64,000 nucleotides of DNA, from the NCBI RefSeq assembly GCF_964199755.1, contig NC_133898.1:29825985-29889984 (forward strand). The letters are read 5' to 3'. This document shows, piece by piece, positions 31,971-61,756 of the stretch. The notes beneath the pieces were generated by a model. That model searched no databases. It was given only the letters and a program-made list of their open reading frames with translations, and had not been told where the DNA came from. Both the position numbers and the translations under genes were made by a program. Source of the stretch: Larus michahellis. Taxonomy: Eukaryota > Chordata > Aves > Charadriiformes > Laridae. How positions within the stretch are numbered: the stretch's first letter is position 1; each line of letters begins with the position of its first letter.

Positions 31971-34900
31971 AGCTTGCTGCACTCTTACTTAGTAAAACTC
32001 TGGAAGGGACAAAAAAAGACCTCCCTCTGAAATTTATTACAGATCACACGTGTGGTACAGTAACAGAGCAAGAAACACAGGGTCCTCTGCCAATCCTAGA
32101 TCTTATAAAATCTAAATGCACCAATAATTGCTGAGGTTATTTTTAAATGTTTAACACAAGTCTCGAAGGCACATACACATTTAACATCTGTATCTTTTTA
32201 AAGTGTTATTTATTCTACTATATCACATCTCTGGCAGTAATTTTGTGCTAATTGCTCGGAACATGCTGAACTCTGGGGGATTATAAATTTAAGTATGACA
32301 CTTACTATATTTTTTCAAATTTACACATATTGAATAGTCAACTAACCTGACATCATTGGAAGCTCAAGACGGTTGGTGACTGTCCATTTGATTCCACAAG
32401 TGTGGATTTATTACCATGAGTCAGAGAAGTAGAATTACCTTTTCATGAGGTTGGAGTGATCTGTCTTTCCATATAAGAAAGACATTCCATATACTATGGT
32501 AATGTTGATGGTGTTACTAGGGTGACCTAAAAACGTTAACTGAGTGTTTTAGACAGAATTCATTTTAAAGGAAACCAGGCATTACCTTCTGTTCCCTTAC
32601 TAATGCATATGCTTGTCCATACTTAGAAATACTCTTTAGTGCTTGAATTTTAGTTCAAGAACTAAAGCACCTTAATGGTACTTAAATCCCCAAAAGGATT
32701 TAAGTACCATTATTGTCACTACAATTCTAGCATGCACAAACATCAGGATTCATCATCTGCTTCTTCCTTCTGTGTGGTTGCGCGGACCCATAGCTCCAGC
32801 AATATGCTCTGAGTGGGAATTTGCCTGCCTGTCCAACCATCAGGATCTAATGTGGCATTCACTTGGAATGCGCATATTTGGGATCACGGGTGTATTCAGA
32901 AGGCTCACTTAAGGAATTCACACTCAAGTGGATTTTACGTGATAACTATGCAGATGTTACGTGGCAGAGGCTGGGCTGTGGGCTTGAAATCTCTCTTTAA
33001 AACCACAGGTTTCTTTATCAACATTAGCAGGGTTTTTTTTGATAGGAGGATAGGAGGTCTTGTCTAGTCCTTGTGACGTTCATATCCTTTCATTCGCATG
33101 CACAGGAGTAGTACACTAATGCTTTCCTACTTAAGGAGCAGTCTGAAATGCCAGACATAACTGGATAGCCTCTCAGCATCTAGGACACTGATAATATGTT
33201 TGTGAGCAGCAGACTAGAGGCTTGGCAAAAAGAACAGGATCCTGTATTGTATGCAGTGTCTGTGAACATTGAGTGAAGGGGTCAGTTATGAAAGAATCTA
33301 ATTTTTCCTGTTTTTGCTTGTGATAGATCAGCTTTTAGACGGAATCCAGTTTCCAGAATATAATAATTGCATTGCTGTTTCTGAGCTCATAGTGTCCAGA
33401 ACAAGCTTCTCTGTGCTTTAGGAAATTGTCACTAAACAACTGTTCCAACAATCATGAATTCTGGTAGGGCACTCTGCCAGCAAAATGGATCATGAGATAA
33501 TTAAATGCATCTTAAAATGCCTGGAAAAAAAAAAGAGAAATATTTCAAATACCTTTAAATGATGGCACTATATTTTTGGGAAGACATAGAAAATGGCCTT
33601 ATGGTTTTATGTCCTTCTTCTCTGATGCACTTACTGCTGTCCATGGAAAGTACTGTCATTACTCTGGAATTTAAATACGTGTCATATGTGCCATAGTTGT
33701 TAGGCTGGAGTTTCTAGGGTAGAGAAAGATGAGAATCCAAACAAGAGGTTGGTTAAAATCTATCCCACTGCCTAGCCCCTTACCATTTCCTTTACAATCA
33801 TGACAATCTCTTATATGCTCTTTTCATTGCATAGGTTCTTCTGCTGCTCAGACATGGCCTAGGGTATACTGATGCCTTAGGCAAATGTAGGATTGTACCT
33901 TCTCTTTCCTGTGTCCCTCTGTCTCAGAAAACACTTGCCCCTTGAGTCAGTTCTTCTTCCAAGTGGGCTTTGTGAGGCTTGATACTCATCTGTCTGAAAA
34001 GAACACCTTTGAGTCACAGATGCACCCTGGGGATGGGTCCCTGCAGCTCATAGATCCTGAGATTCAGTGACACAGTAAAAGAAATCTGCTGTTCCAACCT
34101 CAGGGTGGAAGGGTGACAAGCTGATTGGCTGCACATGAAGTTCTCCTGTACGAAGGTACTTGAAATTAAGAGCTTACACTGCTCATTAGTAATTTTCTGT
34201 CTTGTTTTAGAGATGATGGTAGAAGTAGTCATCATCTTAAATTGTGCTAGCTGGCTTTGCTGCTGTAGTCACTGTGTCCAGGAGGACTGAGGAGCTAGAA
34301 CTGCTTCTTTAGAAAGAAGATACAGTTCTTTGTTTAGTTTACTGTTACCTTTTTCTCATCTGTGATTTCTGTTGCAGTGACCTGTTCCGGGCTAAGGAAG
34401 ATTATTATATCCCCTCTCAAATGATTTTATGGAATTCTTGGCTGTGGCGAAGAGGACTTGGACATGTCTTGCAAAAAAAGACATTAGCTCTCACACTGAT
34501 TGGAAATTATTACCAGTCAAAGCATTCGTTTTTCCCAAAGGCATCCACAACACCTTTTGTAATTTTGACCTTTACGATTTATAATATAATTGTTAATTAT
34601 GTGATACCTTTGTTCTGCACAGACTTCTAGACTTATTGTAGTCCCTTGCAAACCTTTTGGAACCCTAGGTGTGTGGATACCTGTTTGTTTGAGTTTGTAA
34701 CTGCAGTTTTCTTTAGTAAATAGCTCCTAAGTGAAACTGTCTGTGAACTGATGTGCATGGGAGTAAGAATCCTAAGTCTGTTTGTGCATTGTGTGTAGAC
34801 ACTTTCTTAAAAGGCTCTGGTTGTGTTATACTGTGCACATGCAAAGAAGGGCAAATGTGATATATTATCTTATTTGGAAATAGTTAGTCACACAATTAGA

Positions 34901-43736: not shown

Positions 43737-43934
43737 TTAACCTTGTAACGTGCCTTCTTTGATCTGTTGAATAAAAAGATTCCTTTCATCTTCAGGTGTC
43801 CTTCCGTTTTGTGCCCGCACTATACAAGTGGGCCTGTGAAGGTTTAGCATGTATATCAAATGCTGCTTCTCGTTCTTTAGCTCTTCAATCTGGGCTTTTA
43901 ATTCTGCATTGATAGTTTCCAGCTTTTCTGATTC
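43737..43934 (-). CDS. ATF3: ATF3 exon 4 (leucine zipper and C-terminus)
   Basis: After the acceptor TAG (43937-43935) the exon encodes residues 117-181 and TAA at 43739-43737. [20 protein letters not shown] continues the zipper. The tail [20 protein letters not shown] matches human, and the last residues are LQG instead of LQS. Confidence 0.98.
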   Translation of the reverse strand, partial: ESEKLETINAELKAQIEELKNEKQHLIYMLNLHRPTCIVRAQNGRTPEDERNLFIQQIKEGTLQG

Positions 43935-46149
43935 CTAGTCACAAAGGACAGACACAACTATTAGACTGAGCAGTTCAAATAGTTAATTGCAATGTTTATC
44001 TAATAGTTGCAGTCTTTTATTGGTGGGGAAGCATATGGCTAGCTGTAAAAGAACTCGCATGCTCTTAATGTCCTGTCGTGGTGAAACTATACATCACTCA
44101 ATCGATACTAGTCTAAAAAAGCAGGTTGACAGTTGCTTTCTGAACTGAGAGTAACAAAAGTTAAAAGGCTGAATTCAGATTTGTATTGACTTACAAGAGC
44201 GGGCATCCAAAGCACTCTTGCTGCCTTCTGCAAAACTGTTCTCAACTTTTTGGGTCAAAAATTTACCCAAAGCTATTTACGCTTCTTATTAACTCCCTGG
44301 AACACCATGTCACATACCTGTAAACCCGTGTTAAGCTAAAAAAGTAAGGACATAGCTTTTTCCCCTTCACCCCTGGGTATAGGAACAAAGACAGGCCTGA
44401 TGCTGCTGTAATATAGTTTTATATCACGGCAGAGCAGGTGAAGACACTACTGGGGTCTTAGGCCAGAGAATTCAGGGCTAAGCTAGTATGCCACTCATTT
44501 CATAAAGAAGTCAGAGATTACTTGTTGGTGTTTGTAGGCTCTTGGTCTCCACCATGGATATTATATGAAATGAGATTTTACTTTTTTTTTTTTTGTTCAG
44601 TGTACTGATTTAAATTCATATGTCCCCATAGACAAGATTGGTCCCTGAAACAGCAATCTCTTTTCACCCCTACCATGCTTTCACTGTTTTCCAGTTTTAA
44701 CCAGGTTTGATTTAATATATAGCATGTCCATTTTTTAAATAACTAATATTTAATGGGTTTACAGAGTTTTGGGTGACATCTTTCTGTAATACCTACTATG
44801 ACAGTGCCCCTGTGCAGTCTGTTCAGATCCTGGTACGATGACAGATTGAGAACAACTCATGCCAGTCACTTACTTTCTGCAAACATTCTGTTTTCTCCTT
44901 CTTTTTGTTTCGGCACTTTGCAGCAGCAATTTTGTTCCTTTCCCTTCTTCGCTTTTTTCTTTCATCCTCTTCAGGAGAAAACTATCCCATAAAAACAGAC
45001 ACACACAATCCTTAAGATGTCGTAAATACTCAACTTGTATTTTGATAACTTCTGAATTTTTAAAAACAATGTGGATAGTGTTGTCAGTGCTCACATCGTG
45101 AGTTACATAAGGATGCAATTCTGACCTTGCTTCCCATACAGTAAAATGGTAGTAACTCCATTAGAATTGTCAATAAAAACCTGACCAGAGTTTGGACGGA
45201 TGCGATGGCTCATTTTAAATCAATGGTACTCAAAAATCTTGCCAAGCATCTCCCCAGGCTGACTCTCACACCTCCATCTCTTCTCCGCTTCCCAAGGAGG
45301 AAAAGGAGCAAGGGGCATGGGAAGAAGAATGGAGGATGTGGCATGAACAAGGCAGATAGAGTGCAGCAAACTAAAGACAGCACCAAAAAGGGGATATTAA
45401 CGCACTCCTTCAAGTTTTGTTTCCTGTGGAGGCTCAGACCAAGGTGTAGCTATTTCCGTAACGTAAGCTGTTTCTCCACTTTAGAAGAGAAATGTTTTTC
45501 ACAGAGACTGTTACCTTAAAGTAAAAACCTAGTGTGGACACAGCATGGCCATGTCTACCTCAGTGTACTCCACGTGGATCCCACTGCTCTGTCCTCACTC
45601 AAGTAAAGCTGCAGTGACTTATTCCAAATTCAGCCACAAGTAGGCAGGGAAACCAGATTAGCACTTGCTCTAATCTCTGTAAAACGTTGTCCTTAGTTCA
45701 TAATCAAAACTAAAATATTTAACTATAGGCCTCAAGGGAAATGAGAAATACCAGAGAGTTTCCCAGAGGCACTTATCAAAAAGCCAAGCAGCAGGTTTGA
45801 AAGGATCAAGTATGATGGGGAGGGTTGTCTGATCTAATTACTGGTCTTGTGGTGAAATTTTATTAGATAATTAATCATTGACACTGAAATGCTGTTTTAA
45901 AAGTCATACCTCCGTTTTCATGATTGATGTTTCAATTGGCCTTTCAGAAACTGTCACCGTGTCCAGTGTAGAAGACATCCTGTGGGACTGACGCTTATTC
46001 TGAATGGCGAACCGCAGTTCCTCTTTCACCAGTGGGGTTAAATTTGTGAAATCATCAAACCCCAGTGAGCCTGCAGGGGACAAAGTGGGAACAATTGCGG
46101 AGGCGCTGACTTCTAAGGCAGATACCTGGCCTGAGTGTTGGACCATCAT
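43737..46149 (-). CDS. ATF3: ATF3, stress-inducible bZIP transcription factor (three coding exons)
   Basis: On the minus strand, joining 46149-45910, 44981-44874 and 43934-43737 gives 181 residues, the same length as human ATF3. ATF3 is an immediate-early nuclear factor of the ATF/CREB group. It binds CRE/AP-1-like DNA as a homodimer (repressor) or with JUN partners. The basic region spans about residues 88-110 with signature N96-x-x-A-A-x-x-C-R104. Zipper leucines fall at 114, 121, 128, 135 and 142, followed by His149. The N-terminus [20 protein letters not shown] matches the human start [20 protein letters not shown]. All junctions are GT-AG and phase 0, with no disruption. It converges on BATF3. 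Confidence 0.98.
44874..44981 (-). CDS. ATF3: ATF3 exon 3 (basic region)
   Basis: The 108-nt exon has its acceptor TAG at 44984-44982 and donor GTAAGT at 44873. Residues 81-116 run from [20 protein letters not shown] through [16 protein letters not shown]. From PEEDER onwards the basic region is indistinguishable from human. Confidence 0.98.
44982..45909 (-). other. ATF3: ATF3 introns 2 and 3
   Basis: Intron 2 (44982-45909, 928 bp) and intron 3 (43935-44873, 939 bp) are AT-rich. Apart from a T tract at 44581-44594 in intron 3 I see nothing in them. Confidence 0.85.
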
Positions 46150-46153: not shown

Positions 46154-49100
46154 CTGAAAGGTAAAAAGAGATAACAATAGTCTTTTGGCAACTTTAGACA
46201 GGCAAATAATATCTCCTAGAGGTATATTTTATAACGTGAAATGATACTGTACTTCTTGCATTGCTTCAGTCCCCATTCACATCTACCCCAATCTCTCACT
46301 AAAGTCAAGCAGTTAAGAATTTGTTCACTAGTTAAATCTTCTACTTTAGGTTGATTTCAAGCGGCTATTTAAAATAATAATAGTATTAGCGTATCACACA
46401 ATATCTATCAAGGTGTTTCTGAAACTTAATACGGAAAAGAAATTATGTGTATATATATGTACACTTCAAAGTTTTAAACTGGTAATGTGTGGCAAATGAG
46501 AATCGAGTGAACAGGAGGAGAAAGAGAATAAGGAACAAAAATCAGAAAGCAAAGAAATATTATTATTATTTAAAGTACAGGAGTTTAAGAGTATCTCCAT
46601 CTTCAGAGCTATACCACCACGGATTCCAGCTTCAAATGGACAGAGTGTACCTTGATCTCACTATGTTTAGGCACAGCTCAAAGAGTTCTAGAATCTGAAG
46701 TTTGCGAACCAGGACAGAATCTGTCACAAAATGATCATGCTCAATTTTACACAAAGTTGTAGATCTGGTTATAAACTCCTGGAAAATGGTTAACAATAAG
46801 AGCGAGCACAAAGTTAAAAGTCTATACGTGCTCTGGGGCTTCAAAGCACGGGCTGAGTTGGAGCGATTGAGTCGTGAAAAATGTGAGGCCGTTTGCTTCG
46901 TTCCTTTACTCTTGTAAAATGTGAAACTGTCCTCATGTGCCCTCAACGAGAGGTTTGAAATTCTTAAATATTTATGGTCAGATCTCCTGCTGATATAGAA
47001 CAGTGTGACTGAAGAGACTTCAGGGGAATTATGCAAATGGACACCCATGGAGGAACCTCATTTCTAGTAGCTTTCCTAAGAAAATGAAGCTACCTGACAG
47101 TGCTCTCTACTTTCCTCATTTTAGTCATTCTTATTAACTTTTTAGCCAGTTTTGGAGAGTGAGAGACCCTCTGTGTGCTTTGTGAAAATTGGTGACTCCA
47201 CTGAGGGACAAAGAGACAAAACTCAGCAGTCAGCCATCCTAACATCATGGGCAACCTAGCTAGCAGATGCATGCAGCTCTGCATGAGACGCAAACCATCT
47301 CTTGCCCAGAAGAGGTGAGATGAGAGGTTTGGAAGAAAACTGAGCTTTTTTTGTCGGTGGCCCAAGGTACAAAAGGTGCTAATGCATAGGAAAACAGATT
47401 ATATTACTTCCCTTATTCATAAAGTGACTTGTGTTAAATTGGATTTTACCATGTTGGTTTTCCAGCTTTCTTTGGTATGTGGGTTTTATGTTTTGGTTTT
47501 TTTTTAATAGCTGTACAGGTAATTACAGTACGTGTTATCTACTCTTGATTAGAACTGCAATAATTATAGCAAGGTCGATTGTAATTTACTTAGTGCAGGT
47601 AAGCAAATAGTTGCCTCGGGGTAGCAGTGTGAGTAAGTTAAACTTCCACATGGTCAACACAGGATTGCATAGTTCCCGTATGCTACTTCTGTAACCCAGC
47701 AAGAAATGTTTGGGGTCACGTGCCTTGGCAAGAAGATAGATTTTACTCAGAGATATCTAAAAATACACTGTACATCCACACTGGTGCAAATGAGAGTAGA
47801 ACCTGGTTCATTGATAAGTGAGGTAAATACAAAAATGTGAGGACAGTGAATTGCCAGTTGGTAGAAAATGGCATGTCCAGCTGCAGAGACTTCCTCACTT
47901 CTTCCTCACCCAGTCACCACAGAAGAGCTGAAGATTTCCCAGAGTCTAGGAGTGAAATCCTGAACCCACTGAAATCAAGAGGACTTTTTCTGTTGACCTC
48001 AATGGGGCCAGGATTTCACCCGAAGTTATTAAAGATGAGGAAATTATTTGGAACAACTTGTTCTTCAGAAAGACCTTGGGAAATTTATGTAATTCTCTTC
48101 AGAAAGCCCCTGCTCATGAGTCACATTTAAAGTACTGATACTGTTTAATCCTATAATCTCAGAAAGCTAGCAGTTACTCTTTTCCAACAAGTCAGATAAT
48201 TTCCAGGTAAACTCCTCCCAACATTATTTATCATTTATCAACATTCAACTATTCAACTCATTTAAACAGGCTAGTTCCAGATGACACGCAACTCCACTAG
48301 CAGAAATTTTAGCTGTTTTCACTGAATGTCAGTGTCTTTGGCTCCCAGTGATGGCTTCATTCAACAAAGTTAACTCTGTATAATTCAATCAAACCAGGAG
48401 TCTTAAATTAACAGTAAAGCCGTTTCTTCAGCCTACAAAATAATTAATTGAGCTAATCATTTTCCAGCACTGGTGGTTTATTCAATTATTTTTCAATTTA
48501 GGTGAACTTTTAATTAGGTTCTGCAACAGCACCAGAGGAAATCCAGAAGGTTTGTGTTTTAGTAACATGTCTGAGAAATCGTGTTAATTGTGGATTTCTA
48601 CTTGTTAGTGCTAAGCGTACCACAAGGACCAACAAAACCCTACTACAATGTCCTCAGGTACCCTCATCCGTCTGTCATTAGTGTAAGAAAAGGGATGGGA
48701 GGGTGCCCACAAGGAGGGGAAGCACAGAGGGGCAAGTGTCCTTGACCACAGAAATTTGCCGCTCTCCTGCCTGAACAGCTCACTGACCTTCCAGACATCC
48801 TGAAAGGCATCTCTATTTATTCAGACTTTAGGGAAGGGGGGGGCCTTCCAGGGGGCCTTCCAGGAGGCTTCTGTAAGGATTTCTGCCGTGAGCCCAGTCC
48901 CATTTTGCAGAGCTGTTTGCCACTGGTTTGCTTTCCTTGGGCAGGCCTTCTGGACAGTGCCTAGAAGGGTAGGGTTCCAGCCTACCACCGAGATTGTTAG
49001 GAACCACCGTGAAACAAGGAACAAAAATAGTCAGCCTTATGTCAAATGTACTCAGTAAGCTGAATAGATTCCCTTTTCATAACAAGGTACATGTTTTCCA

Positions 49101-50176: not shown

Positions 50177-50396
50177 GGCCTGCCCGGATCCTCTACAGCT
50201 CCTCCGCCCCCGCGGACCCTCCGGGCTGGCGGTGCCGCCGCCGGCTGCCTCCACCTCCCGGGCGCACTCCCGCCCGGCATCCCCGCCGCTCCCGGAGCCG
50301 CCGCCGCCGCCGTCCCTCCGCCGCGGCCGCCACCGCGCGGTGCCGAGCGGCGCTGCCGGCCCGGGGCCAGCCGGGGCTCGGCGGGCTCCCTCCCGC

Positions 50397-50447
50397 CGCT
50401 CACATCTGGCGGCAGCTCGGGCAGGGGGTTCCCCCCAGATGTGAGCG
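50397..50447. repeat. 13-bp inverted repeat with paired E-boxes near ATF3 exon 1
   Basis: Arms 50397-50409 (CGCTCACATCTGG) and 50435-50447 are perfect reverse complements around a 25-base GC-rich loop. Each arm carries an E-box core (CATCTG/CAGATG). It falls in the long form of exon 1, or in intron 1 if the nearer donor is used. Confidence 0.75.
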
Positions 50448-50685
50448 CCGGGAGGGCGGGCGTGGGGCAGCGGCGGGGAGCTCGGCGGGGCCGGCGGCTC
50501 TCTCGGGGCTCACGGGAAGCGGCGGTACATCCGCACCCCGTTTCGCTCCGGCGGCGAAACTTTTCCCCGCCGCGGACCCCCCGGCGGGCATCTCTCCGCG
50601 GCGGGACAACCTCCCACGGAGCCCAAAACCCCGCTCCCCGCCGGCACCCGGAGCCTCGGCGTCTCCCCTCCCGCTTCCAACCTAC

Positions 50686-50817: not shown

Positions 50818-50826
50818 GTTGCATCA
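50818..50826 (-). promoter_or_regulatory. ATF3: C/EBP-ATF response element (CARE) in the ATF3 core promoter
   Basis: TGATGCAAC on the minus strand matches the CARE consensus TGATGNAAN. It is the sequence I recall for the human ATF3 CARE, which sits at about -23 to -15. It lies between the TATA box and the inferred start, as in human. ATF4 acts there in amino-acid and ER stress, so the same control is inferred. Confidence 0.75.
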
Positions 50827-50832
50827 CCCCCC

Positions 50833-50840
50833 CTTATATA
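50833..50840 (-). promoter_or_regulatory. ATF3: ATF3 TATA box
   Basis: TATATAAG on the minus strand, with GC-rich flanks. Mammalian ATF3 also has a TATA promoter. It lies about 30 bp upstream of the inferred start. Confidence 0.8.
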
Positions 50841-50949: not shown

Positions 50950-50958
50950 TGATGCAAG
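50950..50958 (+). promoter_or_regulatory. ATF3: Second CARE-like element upstream of ATF3
   Basis: TGATGCAAG on the plus strand also fits TGATGNAAN. It lies about 145 bp upstream of the inferred start, just beside the large inverted repeat. Whether it is functional is unknown. Confidence 0.4.
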
Positions 50959-50968
50959 GTTTCCCCCG

Positions 50969-51037
50969 CCGGCACGGCTCGGCACGGCGCGGAACGGCGC
51001 GATCCGCGCCGTTCCGCGCCGTGCCGAGCTGTGCCGG
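50969..51037. repeat. Large GC-rich inverted repeat upstream of ATF3
   Basis: Arms 50969-51001 and 51005-51037 are each 33 bp and complementary at 32 of 33 positions, with only three bases between them. The arms are built from GGCACGGC/GGAACGGC-like units. The feature lies about 130-200 bp upstream of the TATA box and would form a very stable hairpin or cruciform. Confidence 0.9.
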
Positions 51038-51080
51038 GCGGTACCGCAGGTTCCCCGACACCTCGGAGCATCCATCGGCG

Positions 51081-54000: not shown

Positions 54001-57000
54001 TTGCTAAACAGAGCTATAGACGTCATTATACAGAGGAACAGACTCCCGTCCTTACAGCTTTCTGGTGTCTCCTGTCTTAACATTTATGCAACTGTAGGAT
54101 GTCAGTCAGAGTAACACAATTAAAATCTCCATGTCCCATCCAGATCCTATGTTGGCTTATGGTCAAGCAGTTCCATCAAACCTATTTGGTTTGGTGAAAA
54201 CATAATGAGATGTAAATAAATAAAACATCTTATGATATCTTGAGTAAAACCATCTCTCTGTGTGCTTTGCAGTTTTAATTGTATTAAATTTTGAAATTAG
54301 CTTAACCCTGATGGTTCAAATTTTTCCCTGCATGGCACATATATGAGAAAGAGGTTTCCAGAACTCAGAGCTGTCATGTGGTAAAATCAGCACAGAATCA
54401 GGTTTTTTGACTCTGTCTTAAAAAGTATTCTCTATTTCTGTGATGGGAGTTAACCTTCACCATGATTTTTGCTATGTGGTACATTCAGGTCTAAATCTAT
54501 GTGGTATGACTCCCCTGTTCCCCAAAACACGCACGAGTTTTGAGACAATTTTCCCATCTGACTGGACTAACACCAGAGTTGAAACTTGGGACTATTTTTT
54601 CCAAGGTTTAGGTTACTACTGCTTGAACTACGGGAGTAATCTGCAGTAGAAGTAGCATCAGCCACCTCCACCCAGCTCAGGGCTCTTCAGCTGCCGTCTG
54701 GGTATTCCTTGGGCATCTGTGGGCTACTTACAAGAGTTTCTCAAAAAAGTGACTAAAAAACCCCCTAAGCGCACAGTAAGGAGGATCAAATTCACCCCAG
54801 AACATTTGGATCTCTATGGGGTAAGAAGTCCAAAAACTGAAGGGAGTTAAAACCCACAGAGTCAACGAGGACAGACTCGCACAGAGAATGTATGGCAAAC
54901 CCTGCTACCGGCTTACGTTTAATACCACTCAAGCCAATGAGTATATGTCTTGTGAAGGGAAATAAGTGCACTATTTTTAACTTATTTATTTAACACTCAA
55001 GGTGAAATTAATTTGCTCCTTGCTTTTCCCTCCTCAGCTTACCTTTCCTTACTGCTTGTTTCCATCACTATCTGATAATTCCTCTAAATCCATTTATTCT
55101 CTGTTTATTATCTCCTTTTTGGATGCTCCTGTTTGCTACCCTCTTTTACTTTGTTTTAGTAATAGCCCCCTTTCCCATTTCCTCAAGACAGCAGCTTCTC
55201 CTTTTCTTTTGCCACTTCCCTTTTCTCCTCCTCTCACTTCTCTCTTTTCCCTCCCTGTATCCCTTTCTATTCCCTTTTTCCAGCAATTTTTCTCCCATAG
55301 GTCCTTCTGATCCTGCCCTGGCAGCTTCCTAAGTTTAAATGATTCATTTTAATTTTCTCTTTCACTTTTTGTGATTTTACTTTTTGTTTCTCTGCTAATA
55401 AGATGGAGACACCGATAACAAAATTACCAAGGGGTACAAGAAGATGTACATTTCAGGACCAGACTCTAGTGCCCAAAATTACCATGAACTTTACTGGAAC
55501 TTTACTAAATTAAATGTTCCACAAGGTTGTCAGTCATTATTACGCACAGTGCTTTCGGGGTGCAGAGTCAGGGGACGGGGACGGGGAGGGGAGAAGTTGC
55601 ACAAACATCCCTTCTCTCTAGCTGAGACAGCCCTGACACTGGCCCAGACAAGTATATCTTTACTTCCCTCCTGCTGAAGCCTTTCAAGGTGTTTTTTTTT
55701 TATCGGATGGACTTTGTGCACTGACGTAGGAGCTGGCTAAGCACAATAGTCTGTAATTACAATTTCTGATCTCTTTGGATACATCCAGATCGTAACCAAC
55801 AAGGAAGAGAGATGCCACATATGAAAGTATGAAAGAATCACATCTTAAACTAGACTGAATAAAGCAAACTCACTGGTTCCACTGAACAAGCAAAATGATA
55901 GGCTAGATATATTAATTGCTCTCCAGGCAAGTGTAAATTATATCTCCTTTATGGTGCCTCTATAGTCCCATCTGTTTAATGGTGAGAAAAGCTCCATCTT
56001 CACAGATCCTCCCCTTCACCTCCTCCTCCCCATCCTTTCCACCTTGTAAAAGCATGCCAGATTTTTCTTCAGAGCATGAACTGAAGCCGAACAGCATAAT
56101 GAACTTCATCAATGGCTTTACATGTAAAAAAAAAGATCACGGATTAAAGTACTAAGACCTGATCCAACTGTTATTGAAGTCAATGGGAAGATTCCCATTG
56201 ACTTCAATGAGAGATAAATTCAGCCCCCAGGGACTATGAAAAATCAGCATTTAGTCACACTGGTTCTCAGCACACAAAACTCTCCTCTTAAAATGACTTG
56301 AAAGAAATGCTAGAAATTATTCACTGAAGGTGTACTTTTCACTTAGGTGGACTAATGTAATTATGGTTTGTATGCCAGGTAAACACAAAGGGAAGAGACT
56401 GAGAGAATACGGCTATTTTTACTGGGCTGAGTTACAAATATTTTGGAATCATCACGCTGCTACACACAAATAAACACACACACGCAAACACATGCTCCCT
56501 ATAAAAATTACCTGTTCTCATTGATCGCCCTTGGAACTGTGCATCCTATAAAGGACACTCTAGGACTTGATGTCATTAATGATACTTTAAACAGCTCTTC
56601 TCATCTGCCTGGTAAATATGTAAATTACAATTTGCCATAATAATTACAAATGCACATTTCTAATTATTAAACATTGATTTCTACATAAATACCATTTCAG
56701 ATACCAACAACGTATGACACAGATTTGCAATCTACTGACGATTCAAAACCAAGGCTGCCATTGCAGCTTTCACGCTGCTTATCATTTGTCCTCTCACCCA
56801 CTTTACATGTGCCTTGCCATGAGAGGAACGCATGAATGATCTTAGTTTGCAGCCTTTTATCTTCCCTGGTTTATTTTTTTGGCTTTAACTGTACAATAAC
56901 TTGCCCAGATAATAAAGAACAAAGTGTAAGTGAAATGAAACCAATAGGGCTGCACGCAGTTTTAAAATAAGACTGCCTTAATTGCAATCATAGAGGCATT

Positions 57001-60953: not shown

Positions 60954-61260
60954 CAGGCAACATTTAAATTTGGGAGGTCTTTTTTTACAGGTTTGTGTGA
61001 AAGTTGTGCTTTGTGCAAAAGTGGGTGTTTAGGCTCTGAAGTTTTCTCAACAATTTCCTTACTGGTCTGTAAAATCTCTTGAACTCAGGCTGTAAATCAG
61101 CTATGTGTTAGGCTGAGAGTGCTGGCAGTGAAAAAAGGCTTTCATAGCAAGTGAGATGTGCACACTGTTTTCTCTGAAGAGAGTGGGGCTTAAACATGTA
61201 CTCAGTTGTTGGGTTTGGGTTTACAATTATTACAGGTCACTATAACTTTTATTAAAAACA

Positions 61261-61345
61261 TATAATATAATATAATATAATATAATATAATATAATATAA
61301 TATAATATAATATAATATAATATAATATAATATAATATAATATAA
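61261..61345. repeat. (TATAA)17 microsatellite
   Basis: Seventeen perfect TATAA units, followed by two degenerate ones (TACAA, TAAAA). It is likely polymorphic. The minus-strand frame running through it (61202-61408) is an artefact of the repeat. Confidence 0.97.
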
Positions 61346-61756
61346 TACAATAAAACTTTTCCATGAATGCTCTGTATCCTTAAAATATCCATGCAGATGT
61401 CTGAGCATTTGTAGGTTTCATCACCAACTCGAATACATGTTTAAACACTACCCTTTTTTCATTTTTAAAACGCCCATTGTACATATTGTTGCAAGAAGTG
61501 CTGTAAAAGCAGCATTCCAGGCCACAGCCTGGCTCCTCAGGAAGCCACCAGCACATTCATGCAGCTTTTCCCCCATCATGGGTACTCCTGTCACAGCGTA
61601 TTGGTAGGTCAGAGCCATGGGCCTCCTCTCTAAACTCGTTCCTGTAAACTGTGTAACAGGGGAACTTCAGCATCCTTTGGCTTCCTGACATAATCAGTTC
61701 ATTGAATCTTACTTATTTGTGAATGTGCCTGCCCCAAATGGACTGCTTACAAAACC

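Follow-up and report, generated by a model that had tools for sequence, protein, structure and literature searches.

A near-perfect GC-rich palindrome upstream of ATF3 in Larus michahellis: probable origin by snap-back copying

Introduction

Just upstream of the ATF3 promoter of Larus michahellis lie two 33-nucleotide arms that are almost exact reverse complements of each other, separated by only three bases. Are these arms a piece of promoter machinery, or are they a trace left by mutation? We examined this question in a 64,000-nucleotide stretch of DNA (C3:29825985-29889984; here called the window) and in the genome assembly from which it comes (1.405 Gb, 616 contigs). Literature listings on the ATF3 promoter and on the arm-derived 9-mer CGGCACGGC offered nothing useful. 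The interpretation given in an initial annotation of the window is, taken as a whole, partly supported by our results; it missed the pentamer-array nature of the arms and the recurrence of such palindromes in the genome.

Results

The palindrome and its setting

ATF3 coding exons were located by tblastn, using a human ATF3 sequence as query. The same search gave a weaker bZIP match on the plus strand at about 10322, which we take to be BATF3-like. The features of the locus are as follows (window coordinates):

43740..43934, minus strand: last coding exon of ATF3, leucine zipper and C terminus (tblastn, 95% over 65 aa)
44865..45008, minus strand: ATF3 exon with the basic region (tblastn; extent of the match, which overruns the exon start)
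45907..46149, minus strand: first coding exon of ATF3 (tblastn, 74% over 81 aa)
50819..50826, minus strand: TGATGCAA site downstream of the TATA box
50834..50840, minus strand: ATF3 TATA box, TATATAA
50887..50894, minus strand: TGACATCA site
50950..50957, plus strand: second TGATGCAA site, 11 bp from the left arm
50966..51041 (about), no strand: extended hairpin, with about 3 outer pairs past one bulge (folding)
50969..51001, plus strand: left arm, a degenerate (CGGCN) pentamer array, CGGCA CGGCT CGGCA CGGCG CGGAA CGGCG CG, with one C leading
51002..51004, no strand: spacer or loop, 3 bases (ATC)
51005..51037, minus strand: right arm, reverse complement of the left arm with one difference
51030, plus strand: the one position at which the arms differ, T in place of the C of a CpG expected in a perfect arm; its partner is the G at 50976

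The repeat spans 69 bases, and both a repeat search and a script found its arms to be complementary at 32 of 33 positions. Its structure had been correctly described in the initial annotation, as had its position about 130 bp beyond the TATA box (the separation is 129 bp, on the upstream side) and the second CARE-like element adjoining it. We presume the TGATGCAA sites to be CARE-like and the TGACATCA site to be CRE-like. The arms contain 9 and 8 CpG dinucleotides, and the mismatch at 51030 looks like a CpG to TpG transition, that is, a later divergence of one arm, as had been proposed. When a 101-base stretch was folded as single-stranded DNA it reached -57.3 kcal/mol, as compared to a mean of -28.3 for shuffled sequences (z = -10.5). 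The folding model thus predicts that the palindrome, whether as single-stranded DNA or within any transcript that crosses it, would adopt a very stable hairpin.

The palindrome exceeds island-matched chance

Within the 64 kb of the window this is the longest palindrome (allowing up to 1 mismatch and a spacer of up to 20), the runner-up having arms of 19 bp. Among 2,400 islands simulated with Markov models of orders 1-4 (300 each, with the repeat in or out of the training set), the longest arm was also 19 with up to 1 mismatch, bearing out the earlier statement that the arms are not plain chance even in a CpG island. In a thin sample of random background, five stretches of 10 kb, the longest arm was 21 with 2 mismatches. 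The ATF3 palindrome exceeds island-matched chance. An order-3 model trained on the arm and its complement only did reach 33, in 12 of 200 runs, because the pentamer text is of low complexity. When pairs of independent arrays were drawn from the arm's own columns, with opposite orientation and register taken as given, 1,309 of 200,000 draws (0.65%) showed 0 or 1 difference over 30 positions.

The window holds other repeats of several kinds. Less perfect inverted repeats occur as well, such as that at 50367-50477 (46 nt at 76%). Two palindromes, at 56168-56213 and 47952-48019, lie on or near CATTGACTTCAATGGG-like sequence; the related CCATTGACTTCAATGG has 590 matches in the genome with up to 1 mismatch (both strands summed) versus 48 for its reversed control, and sequence of the CATTGACTTCAATGGG/CCATTGACTTCAATGG type has the look of a palindromic repeat dispersed long ago. 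AT-richer DNA at 32673-32712 contains a palindrome whose 18-bp arms (up to 1 mismatch) enclose a 4-base loop, and 61260-61352 is an almost pure ATATA pentamer microsatellite of 18.6 copies.

Sequence traces of probable copying between the arms

Both arms are pentamer-periodic, and the six pentamer units follow each other in mirrored order in the two arms, the odd unit CGGAA included, with the single change altering one unit. Since this order of units is mirrored throughout, copying is the best explanation, and the sequence suggests that one arm was copied from the other. On the plus strand the right arm reads as a CCGNN array whose register continues imperfectly, via the loop (GCGAT), to a CCGCA at 51044-51048; the left array, unlike the right-hand one, ends where its arm ends. 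This gives a weak hint that, of the two arms, the left one is the copy.

With the arms extended by script to 37 bp and 3 mismatches, the sequence beyond them matches its mirror at 3 of 20 positions. The ATF3 palindrome thus shows two of the marks expected of a hairpin made by a template switch: a reverse-complement copy beside its source with a short spacer, and abrupt switch points bounded by non-mirrored flanks. The same flanks bear on the proposal of the initial annotation that the repeat is a sequencing or assembly foldback. This proposal has some ground, since promoters rich in GC are difficult sequencing targets. The mirrored sequence running past the arms that would betray an assembly foldback was, however, absent from the 20 flank positions on either side of the ATF3 palindrome; since the arms end and neither flank is mirrored, two false joins would be needed, and palindromes of the same form, some with arm mismatches, were read at ten loci (see below). 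An artefact is therefore very unlikely in our view, and we do not favour it.

Could the repeat instead be a mobile element of the foldback or MITE-like sort, or the gene of a microRNA-type hairpin? It does have a form resembling terminal inverted repeats, and a 33-bp stem. A search of the whole genome (1.405 Gb, very common words skipped) with the ATF3 palindrome returned only matches to itself, and the exact flanking repeat at its ends is 1 base, or at most 4 when the junctions are shifted by up to 4. We do not favour a transposon, because no second copy and no target-site duplication of more than 4 bases were found. Between 40000 and 64000 of the window, Rfam gave 0 matches at the gathering threshold, so that no known microRNA family was matched there. 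Origins of this sort seem to us extremely improbable, the least credible of those weighed here.

Pentamer arrays are common, palindromes on them are not

The array from which the left arm is built is of an ordinary kind. The genome contains 11 exact copies of CGGCACGGCTCGGCACGGC and 1086 matches within 3 mismatches of a 23-mer, overlapping registers being counted separately. The corresponding reversed controls (11 and 1160) provide no null for these counts, because the patterns are mirror-symmetric or nearly so. We assembled 62 independent array loci from all 11 exact CGGCACGGCTCGGCACGGC copies and 100 listed among the 1086 matches to the 23-mer, mostly in GC-rich DNA, and scanned the central 1.2 kb of each 3-kb locus for palindromes (at most 30 bases of spacer and 2 mismatches). 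Arms of at least 30 were present at 2 of the 62, the ATF3 locus itself and a locus on contig C1 (L042). Pentamer arrays are thus ordinary in this genome, whereas a palindrome on an array is not, and we do not favour arrays as the sole cause, as 60 of the 62 loci lack such arms. An origin from arrays only is also countered by the palindromes described below, most of which are not regular arrays.

Pairs of arrays in inverted orientation were counted genome-wide. Inverted pairs in which both arrays consist of three exact units and lie within 30 bases of each other occur at 1 place, and in the opposite order at 3 (counts only). With two units each there are 226 places versus 225 in the opposite order, and therefore no orientation bias. 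A 12-mer inverted pair is found at 1 place (L042), and in the opposite order at 1, which the ATF3 locus fits.

Palindromes of the same build recur in GC-rich DNA

To look beyond arrays, we searched the genome for the 9-mer CGGCACGGC followed by its reverse complement within 30 bases. There are 8 distinct places with this order and another 8 with the opposite one; the searches gave 10 and 11 matches, which after merging of nested or shared ones make 16 places, and the flanks were read at all 16. Long near-perfect palindromes are present at 8 of them. At the remaining 8, arms around the probe reach 12 with 1 mismatch, or at most 15 with 2-3. A composition-shuffled GC-rich 9-mer used as control gave 8 matches; leaving out six on the tandem contig C268, both places (2/2) are perfect palindromes. 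The same letters in reversed order, which make a different 9-mer, gave 4 matches. The ten palindromes are as follows:

ATF3: arm 33, 1 mismatch, loop 3
C10: arm 32, 1 mismatch, loop 0
C22 (L086 140-239; C22:2138539-2138638): 100 bases, arm 50, 1 mismatch, loop 0
C13: arm 28, 2 mismatches, loop 1
C1:147.4 Mb: arm 38, 0 mismatches, loop 2
C16: arm 39, 1 mismatch, loop 3
C15: arm 40, 1 mismatch, loop 1
C1:151.7 Mb (L042): arm 47, 3 mismatches, loop 3 (alternatively 40, 2 and 17)
L110 110-187 (C1:192313439-192313516): perfect, 37-bp arms, loop 4 (GC-rich control 9-mer)
L111 93-191 (C9:32935692-32935790): perfect, 47-bp arms, loop 5 (GC-rich control 9-mer)

The six places on C268 lie between 336390 and 483531 and carry a repeated CCGAGCGGC palindrome in a tandem-like unit, which we take to be probably rDNA; at the one of the six that was read, the arms are 12-14 and GC content is 83% in 201 bases.

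A 9-mer of moderate GC content behaved differently. It gave 24 places, and 0 of the 11 read is a long near-perfect palindrome, the best case (L106 80-122; C4:34111089-34111131) being perfect with 18 bp and a loop of 7. For 10 of 18 GC-rich places against 0 of 11 moderate-GC places, Fisher p is 0.0035. Entering the C268 matches as misses gives 10/24 versus 0/24 (p = 0.0006), provided that the 13 unread controls are misses. The moderate-GC control was searched in one orientation and CGGCACGGC in two; a comparison of one orientation only gives 6/10 versus 0/24 (p = 0.0002) under the same proviso for the 13. All these figures are fractions of inverted pairs rather than rates per base, and the searches are conditioned on GC-rich 9-mers: the probed 9-mer lies in the arms by selection, while the size of the loop, the length of the arms and their outer ends were left to vary.

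The ten palindromes can be read with arms of 28-50 bp and loops of 0-5 bases, and five of the ten have loops of 0-2 bases. Their arms, found with GC-rich probes, are 71-89% GC. Outside the arms, 3-8 of 20 flank positions agree with the mirror; the value of 8 comes from the C13 array. No stretch of more than 15 bases common to any two arms of the ten, and no target-site duplication of more than 4 bases at any of them, was found. By eye, 8 of the 10 are not regular arrays. Also judged by eye, L095 is presumably just past a first-exon donor, L086 presumably shortly ahead of an acceptor or exon, and L042 presumably about 1 kb off a first coding exon.

The mismatches between arms have no clean germline spectrum. 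In core arms trimmed by hand there are 10, of which 5 are transitions (3 at CpG) and 5 are transversions (in L042 and L089 only); in arms extended to 3 mismatches there are 18, comprising 8 transitions (3 CpG) and 10 transversions.

These results touch on a rival reading, close to a proposal of the initial annotation, in which the repeat is a conserved regulatory DNA structure of the ATF3 promoter, acting as a cruciform, a paired binding platform, or a nucleosome or insulator boundary. The TATA box and the second TGATGCAA site are indeed near, and the palindrome is very stable as a single strand. However, the same architecture is found at loci with little common sequence, and its GC-rich centre should make extrusion from duplex DNA slow. 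We consider a regulatory structure unlikely. As this kind of array is common and palindromes of the same build recur elsewhere in the genome, the placement at ATF3 is probably incidental.

Discussion

We think it likely that the ATF3 palindrome arose when a short stretch was copied once by template switching (snap-back), in the sort of GC-rich DNA in which such copying recurs. One snap-back or strand-switch step accounts for the identity of the arms, the small loop and the non-mirrored flanks together. During DNA synthesis, in replication or break repair, a strand ending in the GC-rich pentamer array would fold back, or switch to the opposite strand, at its self-complementary CGCG tip; about 33 bases would be copied backwards before return to the normal template, leaving an inverted copy 3 bases away, and one CpG in one arm would afterwards have decayed to TpG. 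From the sequence we infer how the copy was made and in which direction, that a CpG decayed, and how old the palindrome is. As for age, one difference in 33 sites corresponds to 7.6 Myr (0.19-42) at the rate reported for zebra finch, 2.0e-9 per bp per year (PMC12047795), assuming no conversion between the arms. Loops of 0-2 bases, found at half of the ten, leave too little room for the nascent strand to form a simple hairpin, and suggest that an inter-strand switch or the opening of a hairpin-capped end or break may be favoured.

The proposed event has close parallels in short-range template-switch mutation and the conversion of quasi-palindromes to palindromes (the Ripley model; the four-point model of Loytynoja and Goldman), which share with the ATF3 palindrome an adjacent reverse-complement copy, a short loop, non-mirrored ends and a length that falls inside the range on record. 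In one event, template switching reportedly produces perfect stems and stable hairpins (PMC8794818), and in great apes it reportedly leaves single inverted repeats with a median copied length of 12 and a maximum of 128 (PMC7954356); for yeast there are descriptions of inversions by foldback and of foldback priming where DNA is broken (PMC7467729, PMC10622511). The palindromes of this genome differ from these systems in their longer arms (28-50 bp versus that median of 12), in the strong GC richness of the arms and in loops of 0-5. GC-rich pentanucleotide arrays, (CGGCA)n, are frequent in this genome and the left arm is one of them, but such arrays are normally not palindromic.

In a second history, two inverted pentamer arrays would have existed beforehand and become alike through successive rounds of quasi-palindrome correction, instead of arising in one step. 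The pentamer periodicity of both arms and the running of the right array's register past its arm fit this history, arm homogenisation via template switching is described (PMC8604942), and two pre-existing inverted arrays may indeed have contributed, as the arm-trained model can yield arms of 33 bp (12/200). Against it, inverted arrays of three units within 30 bases are nearly absent genome-wide, and 8 of the 10 palindromes are not regular arrays by eye. We regard gradual homogenisation as rather unlikely, if somewhat less so than a regulatory structure, and prefer the single copying event.

How many such palindromes might there be? Besides the one in the window, 1 palindrome with arms of at least 30 was found among 61 array loci, and 46,205 CpG islands are reported for zebra finch (PMC12047795). 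Taken together these numbers suggest a genome total of very roughly several hundred, an estimate built on one case, selected loci and the island count of another species. In zebra finch, crossovers and non-crossovers are reported to be enriched at CpG islands (PMC12047795), and by analogy CpG-island recombination is a possible, candidate reason for where the palindromes lie. Tentatively, such palindromes may number in the hundreds, near-perfect, GC-rich, with hardly any loop and with arms of 30-50 bp, and may be concentrated in CpG islands near genes. They would form one mutational class, produced by copying from a snapped-back strand or a hairpin end, perhaps where recombination breaks CpG islands, with the ATF3 palindrome as a member; we would put this broader proposal at distinctly less than even chances.

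In composition such a class would be the opposite of the AT-rich inverted repeats typical of eukaryotes. A survey of 118,019 genomes reports that the vast majority of eukaryotic inverted repeats are GC-depleted (PMC13155455); the perfect inverted repeats that it covers resemble ours in their perfect or near-perfect arms and in spacers of up to 8, whereas the ten palindromes here are 71-89% GC, though the probes were themselves GC-rich. Among the titles and abstract openings that our literature search returned, no report of such palindromes in birds was found.

What does the palindrome do at ATF3? Most likely nothing specific, and by default it looks like a mutational scar, neutral or mildly disruptive, rather than a dedicated ATF3 switch. 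For ATF3 itself it is therefore probably of little importance. The recurrence of such palindromes is of greater importance, since it points to a kind of mutation by which long, almost perfect hairpins arise in GC-rich DNA in a single step. Its products can be tallied in the assembly of any bird, the divergence of their arms gives a date, and their relation to CpG-island recombination can be tested. Such mutation would also be a source of transcripts that form hairpins and of fragile sites close to promoters.
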